DNA of 27,000 nucleotides, taken from positions 1 through 27,000 of IMG/VR virus record IMGVR_UViG_3300049489_000573. One strand, written 5' to 3'. The DNA comes from a virus. The notes under the pieces were generated by a model. The model did not search any database and was not told the DNA's origin. It saw only the letters and a program-made list of their open reading frames with translations. Shown here in pieces: positions 2,167-19,022 of the stretch. The position numbers and the translations under genes were made by a program. Within the stretch, counting starts at the first letter, position 1. Every line of letters starts with the position of its first letter.

Positions 2167-4353
2167 TCAGCTATCCCATTCAATCTTATGATTCATAGTT
2201 AGCTCCCACGCTTCCCTACACTCTTTTAATGAGGGTATAACGTACACGTTTACTTTTCCCTCATCCGTTCTTTCTTGCGCGGATTTTATCTTAGCCCTTT
2301 TTCTTATTGATCTCCCAATACTTTCGGCGGAACCGCCGCCAAAAGTGTTCATACTGTTTTCCTTAAGATACCGCTGGAAAGCCCTTCTAAATCTATCTTT
2401 TGATATGTTTTTTTCAGGCCACTCATCATCAAAATCAGAGCAAATAATCCGGCCATTTGAAAGACATTCATACCAAAATTGGTCAAACGGACTTAAAGAA
2501 ACTAACTTCTGTTCCATCAAGCCTTTAGTAAGATACGCCTTGCTGATATCAAAATCTTCAATGTTATACTTTTGGAAGTAATCGAGCAAAAGGCCATACC
2601 CCCCACGCTCCATCCCTTCCCGCATCTCTCTAAAAAACTTAGTGTCTTGCTTCCGCCCATCACCCACGTTAAAGACTGTGTATCTTCTCTCATCATCTGA
2701 AGCTGGCACTAACCAGTCTTCGTTCCCTATGATGCAAACTCTAGTACAATTCTTGCTCTGAAAAGCTTCTCTTCCTTTTTGTTCAATGACGTGCTTATTT
2801 CCTGAAATTAAATTCTTTAGTGCACCTTCCGCCTGTTTATCGCCGCTCCAAAAAGCTTCGTCAAGCGCTATCAAAATGCACTGCTGAAGATGCGAATTGA
2901 AATTTCCAACTAAATACCTTTTATCAGCCGTCACTATGTAGTGAGAACCGAACAGTTTCCCCACCCTATCTACTAGCGCGTTCTTTCCTACGCCTTTTCC
3001 GCCTTTAAAAACGAGCGCTACTGTTGGCTTCTCCCACGGTTTTTGAATCATGTGCGCGAAGTAACTCATAAGCCAGTGGTTTAAATCTTTATCGCCGCAA
3101 CAAATGTTTTCTAAAGAGTGATTTAAAAACGCGGCTAAAGATTCTTTCGCTTCGTTAGATGCTTCTAGCTCGGATATAGGGCTGACAGACATCCCTCTCC
3201 AAGTATTGTAGTATCGCTTCGGTGCTCGGTTTGACGGATCAAAACACACTCCATCATAACTTCTTCTTTCTTTACTAGCCATCCACACTTTAGAAATGTT
3301 TTTAGTTTTATCGTCAAACACTAGCTTGTGTGGTTCAAATTTGTCATGGAAAGCCTGAACTCCAATGAAATTTGTATTCTTGTACCCTTCCGCATCTTCT
3401 GTTTCGTGTAAAATAGATGAGTGCCCACCCACAATTATGAAAGCATACTCTTTGTTTATCCGTTGGATTGGAGATAAAGCTTCATCATTTTCTTCTGCCT
3501 TTGGTTTGTCTTCAATCTTCGTGAATTGGTTTTCTGGAGCAGCCACACCTTTTTTCTCAGATCCATATCTGTACGCGTTTCTTACTTTTTGTGCTAGCTC
3601 TGTGTAGCTCCAAGGGGGACTACATTTATCGTTCCATAAAGAATACATCAGCTCGGTACAAGTGAACTCGCTCACTCCAATATCCTTAATCCTGCAAGCT
3701 ACCATGAAAGACGTTTGATCTCCGCCTACTCCTTGAACCGATACAGGCGCTTCTTTGGTTAAATATGATATCGCCCTAGCTATAGCCCTATCATCACTTA
3801 CGATAGAAGACTTGAGTGTTTCTTCTTCGTTTGTTTTTGGTTCGTCTCTTCGGCCACAGGCACTAATGATCCATTCAGGAGTGTCATGAATACCGGAATT
3901 GTCGTCCGTATAAATTCTTCCTTCGATAACTGAGCCGCTTCCAACCAAATACCCGCCGCTAGAGCGCACATCAATTCCTCTAGCGAGTACGTGTGCGCCT
4001 TGTCTAACTGGAAAAGGATTTCTGTAGATGAGATGCTTTCCCCCTGACACTGTTGTTTGTGTGAACGTTTTTGGGAAATCTTTTCCTTCAAGCTCAAGCC
4101 TGAGCGCTTCTTCACTGCCATGTGAATCTCCTTTATCGTCTAAATCTATAGCCACTAAAGCTTCCGCTTCTAAAAATTTTGAAGTGGAAATACCTATGTT
4201 TGCTTGCGGATTATTCTTCCACCATTTTTCTATGGTCGCAACGTCCCTTGTAGCTTTCGTAGGAAAATCTTTTATGAGCGGCTTTTTAGATCCTGGGATA
4301 AGGGGAAAAACGTGAAACCCAATAGCCGCTAATCTTTTTGCTTTTTCTATCAT
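2167..4353 (-). CDS. Bifunctional primase-polymerase (PrimPol) / VapE-D5-type helicase
   Basis: 728 aa. The N-terminus is an archaeo-eukaryotic-type primase-polymerase domain: a FPLIPGSKKP start motif (16-25), the metal-binding D70-L-D-D73, S103-G-G-K-H107, and GIDVRSSGGYLVGSGS (about 126-141). A linker follows (about 190-330). The C-terminal half is a superfamily 3-like/DUF5906 (virulence-associated E) ATPase with Walker A GGKGVGKN (about 449-456), Walker B LIALDEAF (about 493-500), a sensor-type Asn in IGNEDWLVPAS and the Arg pair in DDERRYTV. It should unwind DNA and make primers at the phage origin, working with the polymerase 5 bases upstream. The length is normal for fused phage PrimPol-helicases and all key residues look intact. 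ATG start, weak AGAAAG ribosome-binding site. Confidence 0.9.
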   Translation of the reverse strand: MIEKAKRLAAIGFHVFPLIPGSKKPLIKDFPTKATRDVATIEKWWKNNPQANIGISTSKFLEAEALVAIDLDDKGDSHGSEEALRLELEGKDFPKTFTQTTVSGGKHLIYRNPFPVRQGAHVLARGIDVRSSGGYLVGSGSVIEGRIYTDDNSGIHDTPEWIISACGRRDEPKTNEEETLKSSIVSDDRAIARAISYLTKEAPVSVQGVGGDQTSFMVACRIKDIGVSEFTCTELMYSLWNDKCSPPWSYTELAQKVRNAYRYGSEKKGVAAPENQFTKIEDKPKAEENDEALSPIQRINKEYAFIIVGGHSSILHETEDAEGYKNTNFIGVQAFHDKFEPHKLVFDDKTKNISKVWMASKERRSYDGVCFDPSNRAPKRYYNTWRGMSVSPISELEASNEAKESLAAFLNHSLENICCGDKDLNHWLMSYFAHMIQKPWEKPTVALVFKGGKGVGKNALVDRVGKLFGSHYIVTADKRYLVGNFNSHLQQCILIALDEAFWSGDKQAEGALKNLISGNKHVIEQKGREAFQSKNCTRVCIIGNEDWLVPASDDERRYTVFNVGDGRKQDTKFFREMREGMERGGYGLLLDYFQKYNIEDFDISKAYLTKGLMEQKLVSLSPFDQFWYECLSNGRIICSDFDDEWPEKNISKDRFRRAFQRYLKENSMNTFGGGSAESIGRSIRKRAKIKSAQERTDEGKVNVYVIPSLKECREAWELTMNHKIEWDS

Positions 4354-11418: not shown

Positions 11419-11820
11419 TTAGGCTTCCTTCTTCTTTATAATGTCTGTGATCGGTAGCGGCCTTGGATCAAAATCTCTTGATGTTAAATAAATCCCTTCC
11501 ACCCGCGCCGCTCTTAATAAATCTTTATGCCTATGGCCTGGGATTACTCCGCCTGATCCTCCTTTTTCTTCAGGGAGTGACCATTTATAGACTGTAGTAA
11601 TGTGAGCGCCGAGGGATCTCGCAAGGTTACTTGCTCCGCCGAACTTATATATTAAACGCTCAAACTGAGTGAATTTATCGCGGCCACAGCTTGCGCCTAA
11701 CTCTCTTTTGAGCTTTGGGAGAGGAATGTTATCGTGTTGTTTTTTAAATCTCCTGCGAAAACAAGCCTTTGAACGATAGGGGTTTTTTTTACTTTTGAGT
11801 GGTGGGGGGTCTGTGGTCAT
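11419..11820 (-). CDS. YdaS/Cro-like helix-turn-helix regulator
   Basis: 133 aa from ATG 11820, chosen for the AAAGGG 6 bases upstream; the open frame extends 19 codons further, across the operator dyad, which argues against a longer start. The N-terminal 50 residues are basic and proline-containing (PPPLKSKKNPYRSK). Residues 52-95 (FERLIYKFGGASNLARSLGAHITTVYKW, then EEKGGSGGVIP) match the YdaS/Cro-like HTH group, with the recognition helix near 72-80 and the usual LLRAARVEGIYLTSRDFDPRP end. Such proteins repress or time phage early transcription. Two copies of a dyad lie 30-104 bases upstream, so autoregulation is likely (inference). First gene of the minus-strand replication operon. Confidence 0.8.
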   Translation of the reverse strand: MTTDPPPLKSKKNPYRSKACFRRRFKKQHDNIPLPKLKRELGASCGRDKFTQFERLIYKFGGASNLARSLGAHITTVYKWSLPEEKGGSGGVIPGHRHKDLLRAARVEGIYLTSRDFDPRPLPITDIIKKKEA

Positions 11821-11849
11821 AAAATGCCCTTTCTTCGATAATATCAGTA

Positions 11850-11871
11850 CACTAATTCTAAGAATTTGCCA
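11850..11871 (-). promoter_or_regulatory. Operator-like dyad, copy 1
   Basis: A 22-bp element centred on the near-perfect dyad ATTCT-A-AGAAT and followed by TTGCCA. The same 22 bp recur exactly at 11903-11924. On the minus strand it lies 30 bases before the HTH start codon. A TTGGCA (-35-like) at 11867-11872 spans its edge, with the dyad occupying the spacer region, so a bound repressor would block transcription. Repetition and symmetry are seen; the binding protein is inferred. Confidence 0.6.
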
Positions 11872-11902
11872 AATCACGAAAAGAAAGGAGACTAACCTAG
11901 TC

Positions 11903-11924
11903 CACTAATTCTAAGAATTTGCCA
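11903..11924 (-). promoter_or_regulatory. Operator-like dyad, copy 2
   Basis: Exact 22-bp repeat of the element at 11850-11871, with a centre-to-centre spacing of 53 bp (about five helical turns), which would place two bound dimers on the same face of the DNA. It lies at the left edge of the non-coding control region. Confidence 0.6.
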
Positions 11925-11990
11925 TAATCAGATAGAGTGCCAACAGAAAACCCGCGAATCAGGTTAAATTTTTGAAAAAAGGTATTAAAT

Positions 11991-12317
11991 TGTACCTGGT
12001 ACTCGGTTTTCTAAAAATCTTCAAAAAAAGGTGGTACTCCTAACCCATTGAAATTAAAGATTTGTACTTTGTACTAAGTGTACTATCTTTTTATATATAT
12101 ATATATATATTATATATAGGAATTATATAAAAAACCCTGGCAACTGAGAAATCACCAAGTACATATTCCACCGAGTACAAAAACGATAAGAATATGATAT
12201 TAAAGGGAAAAGCGATTTTTCCACCTGGTACAAAAAAAACACGAACCCTAGTACAGTGCCTGTAGTACCTTTATATTCGATTTGAGCGTTGTTTTTTAGC
12301 CGAAACATCCGAGTACA
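11991..12317. repeat. Array of twelve GTAC-centred boxes (iteron-like)
   Basis: GTAC occurs at 11992, 11999, 12034, 12064, 12071, 12080, 12159, 12175, 12228, 12251, 12265 and 12313: twelve in about 325 bp, where roughly one is expected by chance. Extended forms follow TTTGTAC[T/C]NGG, often with TGG after it. To the left of the A/T tract the boxes read mostly on the plus strand (ATTGTACCTGG, TTTGTACTTTGTACTAAG), while to the right they read on the minus strand (TTTGTACTCGGTGG, TTTGTACCAGGTGG, TATGTACTTGGTG). They therefore form two inverted arms around the tract. This fits initiator or repressor binding sites. Confidence 0.65.
12088..12118. other. Pure A/T tract, candidate DNA-unwinding element
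   Basis: 31 consecutive A/T bases, mostly alternating TA, in the middle of the GTAC array; a further A/T run follows after GG at 12121-12134. Alternating TA melts very easily and is typical of origin unwinding sites. It could also be a replication-slippage tract of no function. Confidence 0.5.
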
Positions 12318-12351
12318 AAAGGGATGCGGCGCGTAAAGGTAACGGGGTAAA

Positions 12352-12655: not shown

Positions 12656-12691
12656 CTGCTGCCACTGCTGCCACTGCTGCCACTGCTGCCA
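12656..12691. repeat. 9-bp tandem repeat (CTGCTGCCA x4)
   Basis: Four perfect copies in a row, ending in CTGTTAAG. Read as protein this would give a His-Cys-Cys repeat, which is not credible, so I treat it as non-coding tandem repeat DNA. It sits between the GTAC array and the terminator. Confidence 0.7.
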
Positions 12692-12711
12692 CTGTTAAGC
12701 GGCTATAGGCC

Positions 12712-12842: not shown

Positions 12843-13259
12843 TTAAGTTTCAATACATCTAAGTAAATCAAGGCCGTGTTTTTCCAGTAGGCGATTAACT
12901 CCTTTTCTGGAGTAAACACCGCCTTTTAAAATGAATGAATCTCTGCAATCCAATATTTCCCCGGTAACAGCGCAGCAAAACGAAGGGTGGGATTGAATTA
13001 AAGAGACTCTAATGATTTCTTGGTCTTTGTACCACGGGCATAATTTTAAAAGAACGGTAGGAGACTCCGGCATAAAACCCCTTTTAAGGTATTCAGGGTT
13101 TTTGTTTAGTCTGTCATTCATGTCTTTTAAAACAGCATTCATGCGCTTTGTCGCTTTTATTATTCGAGGAACACTATTTAAAAAATTAGTTTCTGCCAGT
13201 TTTTTAAACAGGAAGCCTATTTTTTCATAACGTTCTTTTGTTCTTCTTTTCGTTTTCAT
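12843..13259 (-). CDS. Hypothetical basic protein (138 aa)
   Basis: The ATG follows GGAG with an 8-base spacer, a good initiation site. The N-terminal half is basic and helical (MKTKRRTKERYEKIG; PRIIKATKRMNAVLKDMNDRLNK). The C-terminal half looks like a small alpha/beta domain with several Cys (about residues 74, 95-96, 105 and 135: LCPWYKD, SFCCAVTGEILDCRD, LLRCIE). I do not recognise the family. It is alone with a 36-aa membrane protein in a short minus-strand unit opposite the late operon and ends at its own terminator, which suggests separate regulation. A regulatory, host-takeover or exclusion role is possible but not shown. Confidence 0.65.
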   Translation of the reverse strand: MKTKRRTKERYEKIGFLFKKLAETNFLNSVPRIIKATKRMNAVLKDMNDRLNKNPEYLKRGFMPESPTVLLKLCPWYKDQEIIRVSLIQSHPSFCCAVTGEILDCRDSFILKGGVYSRKGVNRLLEKHGLDLLRCIET

Positions 13260-13478: not shown

Positions 13479-13559
13479 ATGCCAGAAATAAAAGCAATAA
13501 AATCAATGCGGGCTAGGAAAAAAAGCGTCGATCTTATTGACGAATGTATGAAAGTTTGA
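13479..13559 (+). CDS. Possible 26-aa basic leader peptide before terS
   Basis: ATG at 13479 opens a 26-codon frame (basic; MRARKKSVDLIDECMKV end) that overlaps the annotated terS start by 16 bases. There is no strong ribosome-binding site. It may be a translated leader coupling to terS, or chance. Confidence 0.25.
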   Translation: MPEIKAIKSMRARKKSVDLIDECMKV

Positions 13560-14095
13560 CAAGTTTTCAGGTCATGGCTTTTAAATTCAATCAAGAAATA
13601 TTTAAGAAAGTTATGTCGGTTTTCGACAACATAATAGATCAAAATAGCTCGCTCCGTAAGGCGCTGGAAACACAAGGAATCTCTGTTTCTACTTTTCATA
13701 GATACGTGTCCGAAGTACCCGAATGCGGTCAAGCCTACCTTCGCGCCAGCGACATAAGGGCGCATAACTTAGTTGATGAAATTATTGAGATATCCGACAC
13801 GGAACTTGATCCGCAAAGGGCGCGAAACATGATTGACGCAAGAAAATGGGTTGCGTCTAAACTAATGCCTCAAAAATATGGCGATCGGATCGACGTAAAC
13901 GTAACCGCCACCGTCGATTTAAGCGCCGCGTTGTCGGATGCGGTCAAGCGCGCTAAGTTTGTAGTCAATGAAGCGCCGCAACAAATTGAAGTCAATGAAG
14001 ATTATATGCGCCGCGTCACAGATACTGAATCAGCGGAGCGCGAATCAATTCCAGAAAAGACTAGCGAAAAGTTATTTAAGGCATTATTAGAATAA
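13544..14095 (+). CDS. terS: Terminase small subunit (Sf6-type)
   Basis: 183 aa; an internal ATG at 13574 (MAFKFNQEI) would give 173 aa, and neither start has a strong ribosome-binding site. An HTH-like segment lies at about residues 37-60 (LRKALETQGISVSTFHRYVSEVPE). After it come the central helical region and the characteristic RARNMIDARKWVASKLMPQKYGDR block (about 93-116) of Sf6-like small terminases. The C-terminus is acidic and probably binds the large subunit. The protein recognises phage DNA and forms a ring that loads TerL. First gene of the plus-strand late operon; 370 bases separate it from terL. Confidence 0.88.
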   Translation: MYESLTSFQVMAFKFNQEIFKKVMSVFDNIIDQNSSLRKALETQGISVSTFHRYVSEVPECGQAYLRASDIRAHNLVDEIIEISDTELDPQRARNMIDARKWVASKLMPQKYGDRIDVNVTATVDLSAALSDAVKRAKFVVNEAPQQIEVNEDYMRRVTDTESAERESIPEKTSEKLFKALLE

Positions 14096-14141: not shown

Positions 14142-14246
14142 AATTTATCCCGTGTCCTCCCTGTAGCGGTATGGCCGCAAACAAATTATTGCGCTTGCGT
14201 TATATTTTTTTTAAAAAAATTTTTTTGATGAATTTTTATATTTATT

Positions 14247-14465: not shown

Positions 14466-16010
14466 ATGGCTAAAATCGTTTCCCCGTACAGACCTAAAGA
14501 CGAACAGAATTTAATGGCGCACATTTGGGATAAAACCCTTGCGGATGATCCGTTGGCGTTTGTCATGTTTATCTTCCCTTGGGGGAAGAAAGGCACACCG
14601 CTTGAAAAGTTTAAGGGGCCTAGAAAGTGGCAGCGTGAAGAGTTAAACAACATTAAGAATCACATTGCGGCCAATAAAAACTTAATCGCGCAAAAGAAAG
14701 CGCCTTTAGTTTACCAAAGCGCTACAGCTTCAGGGCGGGGTCCAGGTAAGTCTGCGCTTGTTTCTTGGCTGGTGTTGTGGGCAATGAGCACAAGATTAGG
14801 CAGTACGGCCATAGTTACAGCTAATACAGAGAACCAATTAAAAACGAGAACGTGGGCGGAGCTAGGGAAGTGGCACACGCTGGCTTTAAATGGACATTGG
14901 TTTGAAAGGTCGGCGCTGTCACTTAAACCCGCCGAATGGTTTGATGAGGCGCTTAAAAGGGATTTGAAGGTTGATACAGGTTATTACTATGCCAGCGCTC
15001 AATTGTGGAGCGAAGAGAACCCTGATGCGTTTGCTGGGGTTCATAACCATAACGGGATAATAGTTATTTACGATGAGGCGTCAGGTATTCCCGAAGCGAT
15101 TTGGAATGTTACTGAAGGGTTTTTTACAGAGCCGATACTTGATAGGTACTGGTTTGTTTTTTCTAATCCGCGAAGGAACACAGGGAGCTTCTTTGAGTGT
15201 TTTCATCGGTTCAGGGATTATTGGCGGAGAAGAAATTTAGACTCTAGGGATGTAGAGGGGACAGACAAAAACGTCTTAAATCAGATCATATCGAAACACG
15301 GGTTGGATTCAGATCCAGCAAGGATAGAGGTTTTAGGTCAATTTCCAAATACCGGAGATAGGCAATTCATAAGTAGGGATATCGTAGCGGCGGCAAGGCA
15401 GCGTGAGACTGAAGAAGATCAGTGGGCGCCTTTGATCATGGGTGTTGATCCAGCAAGGTTCGGAGATGATAGCACAGTGATTTGTTTTAGACAGGGGAGG
15501 AACGGGAGAGTCATCCCACACAAGAGGCTAAAGGGAGCGGATAACATGGCGGTGGCTAATGAGTGTGCGTTTCTCATTCAAAAATATAACCCAGACGCGG
15601 TTTGTATTGACGCCGGAAACGGAACAGGAATCATAGATAGATTAAGAGAGATGAAGTATAAAGTGCATGAGGTTTGGTTCGGACACGCCTCTCCTGAGCA
15701 AGAATACTCAAACTACAGAACGTACATTTGGGCTAAGATGCGAGATTGGCTTGGAGGGGGGTGCATTGAAAACAATCAAGAGTTAGTAGATGATTTAGTG
15801 GCGGTCGAATATAAATTCATGGGGGTTACAGATAAGTTAAGGCTTGAGACGAAAGAGGAGTTAAAAGCGCGTGGGTTTAGTAGTCCTGATTTTGCTGATG
15901 CTTTTGCTTGTACTTTTGCCGTCAATGTAGCTAGAAAAGATTTGAATGTGGCGGCGGGGAGAAGGAAAAACCACGTCGCAAGGGATTTAGATTATAACTT
16001 TTTTGGATAA
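14466..16010 (+). CDS. terL: Terminase large subunit
   Basis: 514 aa. ATPase domain: Walker A-like G90-R-G-P-G-K-S96, Walker B IIVIYDE ending D203-E204, and the coupling motif S233-N-P. Nuclease domain, RNase H-like: D328 (MGVDPARFGDDST), D382 (CIDAGNGTG) and D478 (SSPDFADAF). All catalytic residues are present. It packages DNA into proheads through the portal and cuts concatemers. The start ATG has only a weak upstream GAGCGAAG. The 3' end (codons for the last eight residues plus the stop) is duplicated immediately downstream. Confidence 0.95.
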   Translation: MAKIVSPYRPKDEQNLMAHIWDKTLADDPLAFVMFIFPWGKKGTPLEKFKGPRKWQREELNNIKNHIAANKNLIAQKKAPLVYQSATASGRGPGKSALVSWLVLWAMSTRLGSTAIVTANTENQLKTRTWAELGKWHTLALNGHWFERSALSLKPAEWFDEALKRDLKVDTGYYYASAQLWSEENPDAFAGVHNHNGIIVIYDEASGIPEAIWNVTEGFFTEPILDRYWFVFSNPRRNTGSFFECFHRFRDYWRRRNLDSRDVEGTDKNVLNQIISKHGLDSDPARIEVLGQFPNTGDRQFISRDIVAAARQRETEEDQWAPLIMGVDPARFGDDSTVICFRQGRNGRVIPHKRLKGADNMAVANECAFLIQKYNPDAVCIDAGNGTGIIDRLREMKYKVHEVWFGHASPEQEYSNYRTYIWAKMRDWLGGGCIENNQELVDDLVAVEYKFMGVTDKLRLETKEELKARGFSSPDFADAFACTFAVNVARKDLNVAAGRRKNHVARDLDYNFFG

Positions 16011-16039
16011 CAGATTTAGATTATAACTTTTTTGGATAA
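15984..16039 (+). repeat. 27-bp tandem duplication of the terL 3' end
   Basis: The last 27 bases of terL, including TAA (15984-16010), are repeated exactly at 16013-16039, separated by CA. The second copy is non-coding and runs into AAGGAG, the ribosome-binding site of the next gene. This looks like a recent slippage or recombination event. Confidence 0.9.
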
Positions 16040-18192: not shown

Positions 18193-19022
18193 GCGGCGCT
18201 GGAGAAGGAACAGGAACAGGAACAGGAACAGGAACAGGAACAGGAACAGGAACAGGAACAGGAACAGGAACAGGAGATTGGGTTTCTTCGCTCTCCCCAG
18301 AAATGCAAGGCTATGTAGGTAACAAGGGTTTTAAAGATCCAGGGATGGTAGTTGAATCGTATAAAAACTTAGAAAAATTAATGGGCGCTCCGAAGGAAAG
18401 ATTGCTCACTCTCCCAGAAAAAGCAGATGACTCCGCCGGATGGAACCAAGTTTTTGAAAAACTAGGAAGGCCAAAAGAGGCTAAAGAGTACGGCATTGAG
18501 GCTCCAGAAGGTTCAGATAAGGCGTTTGCTGAATGGGCAAAAAGCACTTTCTTTGAAGCGGGACTAACTAAAGCCCAAGCTGAAAAACTCGCAGCTAAGT
18601 GGGGTGAGTTTTCAAAAGGGTCTTTAGACGCGCAAGAGAATAGTAAGAAGGAAGCTATCGTTAAGGATGATCAAGCTTTGAGGGCTGAATGGGGTGCTGA
18701 TTTTGAGAAGAATAATGCTTTAGCGGATACGGCTATGCAGGCTTTTGGGTTAAGTACAGAGACACTTGTTAAGCTCAGAGATGCGATGGGGTTCTCAGGC
18801 GCAATGAAGTTTCTTCAACAGTTAGGATCTAAAGTTGGAGAAGCACAGTTCATGAGTGGAAACGGATCAAGCGGTTTCAATGGGGCTATGACTCCTAATC
18901 AGGCTATCGCTAGAATCCAAGCGCTGAAGACGGATCCTGATTTTACTAGGAAATATCTTGAAGGCAGGATCGAACAAAGAGACGAAATGGCGCGTTTGCA
19001 CAGCATAGCTTACGGCGCTTGA
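18189..19022 (+). CDS. Probable scaffolding protein with a Gly-Thr repeat N-terminus
   Basis: 277 aa. Position (between Bbp19-like and capsid genes), high charge and helical content (FAEWAKSTFFEAGLTKAQAEKLAAKWGEFSKG; DPDFTRKYLEGRIEQRDEM) fit phage scaffolding proteins, which shape the procapsid and are then lost. The N-terminus has eleven Gly-Thr dipeptides made by an 11-unit GGAACA repeat, followed by a short conserved-looking start (WVSSLSPEMQGYVGNKGFKDPGMVVESYKNLEKLMG). That segment matches the common phage YVxNKGxxxxxxxVxSYxxxEKxxG pattern, with KERLLTLPEK after it. The Gly-Thr run is probably a flexible arm. Confidence 0.75.
   Translation: MSGAGEGTGTGTGTGTGTGTGTGTGTGTGDWVSSLSPEMQGYVGNKGFKDPGMVVESYKNLEKLMGAPKERLLTLPEKADDSAGWNQVFEKLGRPKEAKEYGIEAPEGSDKAFAEWAKSTFFEAGLTKAQAEKLAAKWGEFSKGSLDAQENSKKEAIVKDDQALRAEWGADFEKNNALADTAMQAFGLSTETLVKLRDAMGFSGAMKFLQQLGSKVGEAQFMSGNGSSGFNGAMTPNQAIARIQALKTDPDFTRKYLEGRIEQRDEMARLHSIAYGA
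18207..18272 (+). repeat. GGAACA hexanucleotide microsatellite, 11 units
   Basis: Eleven perfect 6-bp copies near the start of the scaffold gene. Because the unit is six bases, gain or loss keeps the reading frame and only changes the length of the Gly-Thr arm. Perfect identity suggests recent or ongoing slippage. Confidence 0.95.

Follow-up and report, generated by a model that had tools for sequence, protein, structure and literature searches.

An inverted GTAC box array around an A/T tract as a candidate replication origin in a phage whose relatives carry arrays of other words

A noncoding region of the phage DNA analysed here (27,000 nucleotides, hereafter the window) carries twelve GTAC tetramers at 11992-12316, where 1.2 are expected locally, in two inverted arms around a pure A/T tract. 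This array is a real, non-random element, and it is judged probable (roughly 60%) that it forms the core of an iteron-type phage replication origin. That reading draws on the anatomy of the array, nucleotide skew, the presence of arrays at the syntenic place in relatives, the DnaA boxes that adjoin some of those arrays, and the precedent of SaPI, SCC and lambda. The initial annotation had described the region as a candidate origin or switch; an origin is the best-supported reading, although it is reached indirectly, and a switch is kept as its rival.

The left arm (11992..12083, plus strand) has six boxes, at 11992, 11999, 12034, 12064, 12071 and 12080, all of which scored as pointing rightward, toward the A/T tract. 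The tract itself (12088..12118) is exactly 31 bp long, as originally stated, is the longest pure A/T run in the window, and is a candidate DNA-unwinding element. Six further boxes form the right arm (12159..12316, minus strand; 12159, 12175, 12228, 12251, 12265 and 12313), and five of them point left toward the tract, the box at 12265 having a weak flank score. By flank score, therefore, 11 of the 12 boxes are oriented inward, including all nine that score at least 4. The initial annotation had extended forms pointing inward from both sides, and this stands for orientation but not for the exact form: TTTGTAC[C/T]NGG occurs in three copies, confined to the right arm (12171, 12224 and 12309), while the extended boxes of the left arm are one-mismatch versions (11989, 12061 and 12068). 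With up to one mismatch allowed, the 27 kb hold eight extended boxes, seven of them inside the array and the eighth at 13026, inside a 138-aa open reading frame (ORF). Two marks of an iteron origin are thus present in the window, namely short boxes repeated beyond chance and a pure A/T run between the arms.

Counts along the 27 kb searched, a check that the annotation had proposed, showed a local clustering: GTAC is not enriched over the whole window (61 observed versus 55 expected), and it is the most clustered tetramer locally, with 12 copies per 336 bp. In Markov simulations of the window (n = 300), no 336-bp stretch held more than 6 copies, and simulations of the local sequence (n = 2000) gave a mean of 1.2 and a maximum of 7. 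The earlier count of twelve in about 325 bp against about one expected is confirmed by these figures. An artefact of chance or low complexity could be suspected from the simple sequence of the A/T-rich centre, but box count and orientation are far from random expectation, and the simulations refute this reading, which is given a negligible probability.

The window comprises a leftward replication operon (HTH protein, RuvC-like protein, SNF2 helicase, exonuclease, SSB, PolA and PrimPol-DUF5906) and a rightward packaging and structural block that starts with terS and terL. The array occupies the stretch that separates this operon from the divergently oriented packaging genes; it is upstream of the HTH gene, and no gene is supported there, in agreement with the original description of gene-free DNA adjoining the replication operon. 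Three candidate readers of the box are encoded in the window. The HTH protein (11419..11820, minus strand), the first gene product of the leftward operon, has weak similarity to P22_Cro and YdaS; its ORF extends to 11877, though the ATG at 11820 is the likelier start. The PrimPol with its DUF5906 helicase (2167..4353, minus strand) is a relative of the NrS-1 polymerase and is a candidate either for reader or for the helicase that is loaded. The 138-aa ORF (12843..13259, minus strand), for which no known relatives were found, lies between the array and the small terminase gene terS (13544..14095, plus strand), upstream of which is the syntenic place of the relatives' arrays. Several other repeats were noted in the window. 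Four copies of CTGCTGCCA occur at 12656-12694, in the noncoding stretch to the right of the array; the second-longest pure A/T run (27 bp, 14200-14226) lies between terS and terL; an exact 29-bp tandem duplication (1.9 copies, 15984-16039) spans the end of terL; and eleven perfect copies of AGGAAC at 18206-18275, in a scaffold-like gene, encode a Gly-Thr repeat and are possibly a variable tract.

The position just upstream of the HTH gene and between divergent operons would also suit a regulatory switch: a phage repressor or Cro-like HTH protein would use the boxes as a multi-operator and control both operons, binding cooperatively around promoters within the A/T-rich centre. Diverging words in operator arrays would be in line with superinfection immunity, and a promoter-like match lies on the minus strand within the array (12150-12122), although such sites are no commoner than chance. 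However, the HTH gene has a nearer candidate operator, suggested by its sequence: two AATTCTAAGAATT palindromes (11854 and 11907), each within a copy of a 26-bp direct repeat (two copies, 11846-11924) upstream of the gene. Twelve boxes and a 31-bp A/T tract also exceed the usual needs of an operator, DnaA boxes adjoin the arrays of relatives, and an HTH_3 search of 25 relatives, mostly fragments, gave no protein above the cut-off and one weak match (L066). A switch is consequently held to be rather unlikely, while retaining an appreciable probability.

For an origin, a minimum of cumulative GC skew would be expected nearby. The minimum falls at 11570, close to the array, and the curve is flat to about 14.5 kb; this fits a replication start and is suggestive, but skew in the window is confounded with gene direction. 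In the relative MW202898, third-position skew changes sign within co-directional genes, being negative up to and including PolA and positive from 13 kb onward, and therefore does not merely follow gene direction there; the change lies 2.5-5 kb away from an array-like cluster. Third-position skew in the complete relatives was mostly uninformative.

Among 75 group B relatives, the array side (184 kb) has 20 copies of the perfect DnaA box TTATCCACA, at 15 loci, and the PrimPol genes of these relatives (172 kb) have none. Near the array of the window itself, no DnaA box was found. Sites similar to the IHF consensus WATCAANNNNTTR (e.g. AATCAATGACTTA) adjoin arrays or A/T-rich tracts in L110, L112, L032 and L033, and no IHF-like site was found in the array region of the window. 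If the array is an origin, a phage-encoded dimeric or multimeric initiator would bind the boxes of both arms, the initiator complex would open the A/T tract between them, and the PrimPol-helicase would be loaded and would prime in both directions between the leftward replication and rightward packaging operons.

Arrays occur at the corresponding place in many relatives recognised by TerL. The most clustered hexamer upstream of terS was required to exceed all of 20 shuffles, and it did so in 35 of the 56 TerL relatives with enough upstream sequence, compared with 0 of 46 matched control stretches downstream of terL; about 40% of the TerL relatives fell below the threshold. The array is kept at its place in many relatives, and the word is not. 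The word of the OR003940 group is ACCCNNNGGGT, and others include TTGTCCACA, TTGCCCACA, TGACCCA, GACGTC, GCCAACA, TTATACACA and CCGTAACA; many start with TTTGT, and several have GTGG. Given the differing words and a TerL identity of only about 50% with most relatives, the homology of the window array with these arrays is inferred from position. In the distant relative L116, the boxes begin at the end of PrimPol. Some loci have a second array (ACTAAC) nearer terS; for instance, regularly spaced GTTAGT...ACTAAC inverted pairs lie between the main array and terS in L110, L112, L121, L123 and L161, and this word is common to phages whose main words differ. The relative G005 (L033 1486-1870) has many ATTCTA words arrayed in an A/T-rich region, ATTCTAAGAAT among them. 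In the open-access literature, no paper was found that describes such family arrays in its title or the start of its abstract; the word "repeat" is absent from the main text of the paper on the relative DSL-LC05.

The location of the relatives' arrays directly upstream of terS also raises the possibility of a packaging (pac) site read by the small terminase. This is extremely unlikely: the array of the window is 1.2 kb from terS, and in the relatives near-identical TerS proteins go with different words (97% identity for L113/L123 and 93% for L109/L115), which excludes TerS as the reader there. The word thus does not track TerS DNA-binding specificity in the relatives.

The relatives nearest to the window are MW202898 (TerL 71%) and the virus contig G001 (TerL 68%), whose gene sets are common with it. 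G001, a truncated contig, is the only relative that keeps the GTAC word: five GTAC, in boxes of the window's form, fall within its final 112 bp, and its central TTTGTAC pair adjoins the A/T-rich end at which the contig stops. MW202898, the replication operon of which runs opposite to that of the window, has no GTAC cluster as large as the window's. Its densest AGTTG clusters are upstream of terS (15.5 kb) and upstream of the HTH gene (4.05 kb), and such clusters of one word at both the HTH promoter and the terS region are a point in favour of the switch. The terS region of MW202898 is flanked by a weakly HTH-like protein annotated as a regulator. This protein, together with the clustering of short boxes near DNA-binding genes, would be in keeping with a partition (centromere-like) site of a phage able to live as a plasmid, but none of the window proteins scanned was recognised as a member of a ParA or ParB family, and an origin is the better match for the A/T tract and the inward orientation; a partition site is thus regarded as very unlikely.

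Neither a DNA search among phages nor scanning genome contigs for TerL found anything. A pattern scan of viral contigs for GTAC arrays gave no closer relative either, but yielded two unrelated virus contigs, L151 (1915-2190) and L152 (2997-3290), with 12 and 9 GTAC boxes, respectively, of the form TTTGTACA. These boxes stand in two arms around A/T-rich DNA, a parallel in favour of the origin reading although the gene content is other than that of the window; the L151 array is directly 3' of a helicase-like gene, which we take to be DUF927-like.

According to the initial annotation, the boxes of related phages should be conserved while spacers drift. This expectation was not borne out, as the word differs in all relatives except G001 and some close pairs of distant relatives changed boxes more than spacers. 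For instance, identity between L123 and L161 is about 91-93% in the flanking DNA and 98% in PrimPol, yet at alignable places one has GTGGGTCA where the other has GTTGGC. Column identity in changed pairs was 59% for boxes versus 74% for spacers in L161, and 40% versus 65% in L113 (small sample); in a pair with the same word (L164), it was 100% for boxes and 95% for spacers (also a small sample), and in the mixed boxes of L163, L165 and L121 the box and spacer differences were about equal. Boxes are thus sometimes rewritten between close relatives within a recognisable scaffold. Because the word is a different one in most relatives, the specificities of origin and reader appear to shift jointly, and the reading protein seems to change its target often. 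A wider proposal, put forward as a tentative possibility, is that the origins of a widespread phage family keep part of a common scaffold, while a change of specificity rewrites every box at once; close relatives would then have mutually exclusive initiator-origin pairs, with the GTAC array as one of the alleles. Such rewriting could be driven by competition or incompatibility among phages infecting the same cell, or by evasion of elements that attack the origin or exploit it, and the boxes may be read by a new class of initiator.

The reader itself was sought among several proteins. The HTH protein is the nearest DNA-binding candidate in the window and has another palindrome, AATTCTAAGAATT, at its own promoter. 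The C-terminus of the window PrimPol has a predicted winged-helix-like fold; the model is confident in that part but not as a whole (mean pLDDT 60), and it gave no significant structural match. In many group B loci, the wing loop of this C-terminus follows the word: GRVASGD/GRVASSD occurs with TGACCCA, and GRLKSREFD/GRLKSRRHD with TTGTCCACA. The association (partial rank correlation 0.28, permutation p 0.015) is based on partly hand-curated words and partly reflects shared ancestry. The wing is not the sole determinant, since L161 and L123 have identical wings and different words. A small protein family adjoining PrimPol (57 loci) showed no clean association with the word. A Bac_DnaA_C search of 25 relatives gave one match over the cut-off, in MW202483 (L010 31423-31719), a 98-aa protein that is almost only a DnaA C-terminal DNA-binding domain (PF08299, E 1e-17); the array of this phage reads TTTATGTAAACA.

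The closest solved relative of the PrimPol helicase part by sequence is the NrS-1 polymerase (entries 6k9c/6k9e, which are presumably this enzyme). The two proteins have the same architecture, and the boxes could be template motifs that PrimPol reads directly to start primers, as in the NrS-1 polymerase; the TTTGT start of many relatives' words and the GTGG of several would agree with this. Nevertheless, the NrS-1 motif has only two copies (PMC7102993), TTTGTAC is without GTG, and the words of L161 and L123 differ despite their near-identical PrimPols. Direct reading by PrimPol is accordingly considered improbable.

The surprising aspects are the turnover of words across relatives and the missing reader. 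For most environmental phages, no origin has been mapped. Should the arrays be origins, the dozens of natural word variants at one syntenic place would offer a ready library from which to identify the reader, work out its recognition code and ask what makes origin specificity change so quickly, and origins could be predicted in a large group of uncultured podovirus-like phages.

Among known systems, mycobacteriophage L5-type stoperators likewise consist of many copies of a short asymmetric site; these are spread over the genome, whereas the extended boxes of the window are nearly confined to one place (seven of eight in the array, 27 kb searched). In SaPI and SCC elements, the Rep and Cch2 helicases read iterons, and some of these helicases have a primase domain or partner (PMC7581432). 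Like the window, SaPI and SCCmec combine short boxes repeated in noncoding DNA with a replication protein that is a helicase or primase-helicase, but the known origins are directly downstream of the helicase gene, and the window array is 7.6 kb from the PrimPol gene rather than directly downstream of it. The lambda origin has O iterons beside an AT-rich tract (PMC7466680), so that repeated boxes adjoin an A/T-rich tract in both. However, the iterons of lambda, 4 in number (6 in Stx phages), lie to one side of the tract and within the O gene, while the window has 12 boxes in two inverted arms in noncoding DNA rather than within an initiator gene, and no lambda O homologue was recognised in it. 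The NrS-1 polymerase, a related PrimPol-helicase, starts at a specific template motif, TTTGGTTA or GTGG (PMC8718748), and its recognition site is present in two copies, on both strands, in the middle of the genome (PMC7102993); two 8-nt sites thus contrast with the twelve-box array, and the motif differs. Overall, the window departs from SaPI and lambda origins in positional features, and in its working parts it resembles SaPI, SCC, lambda and NrS-1.
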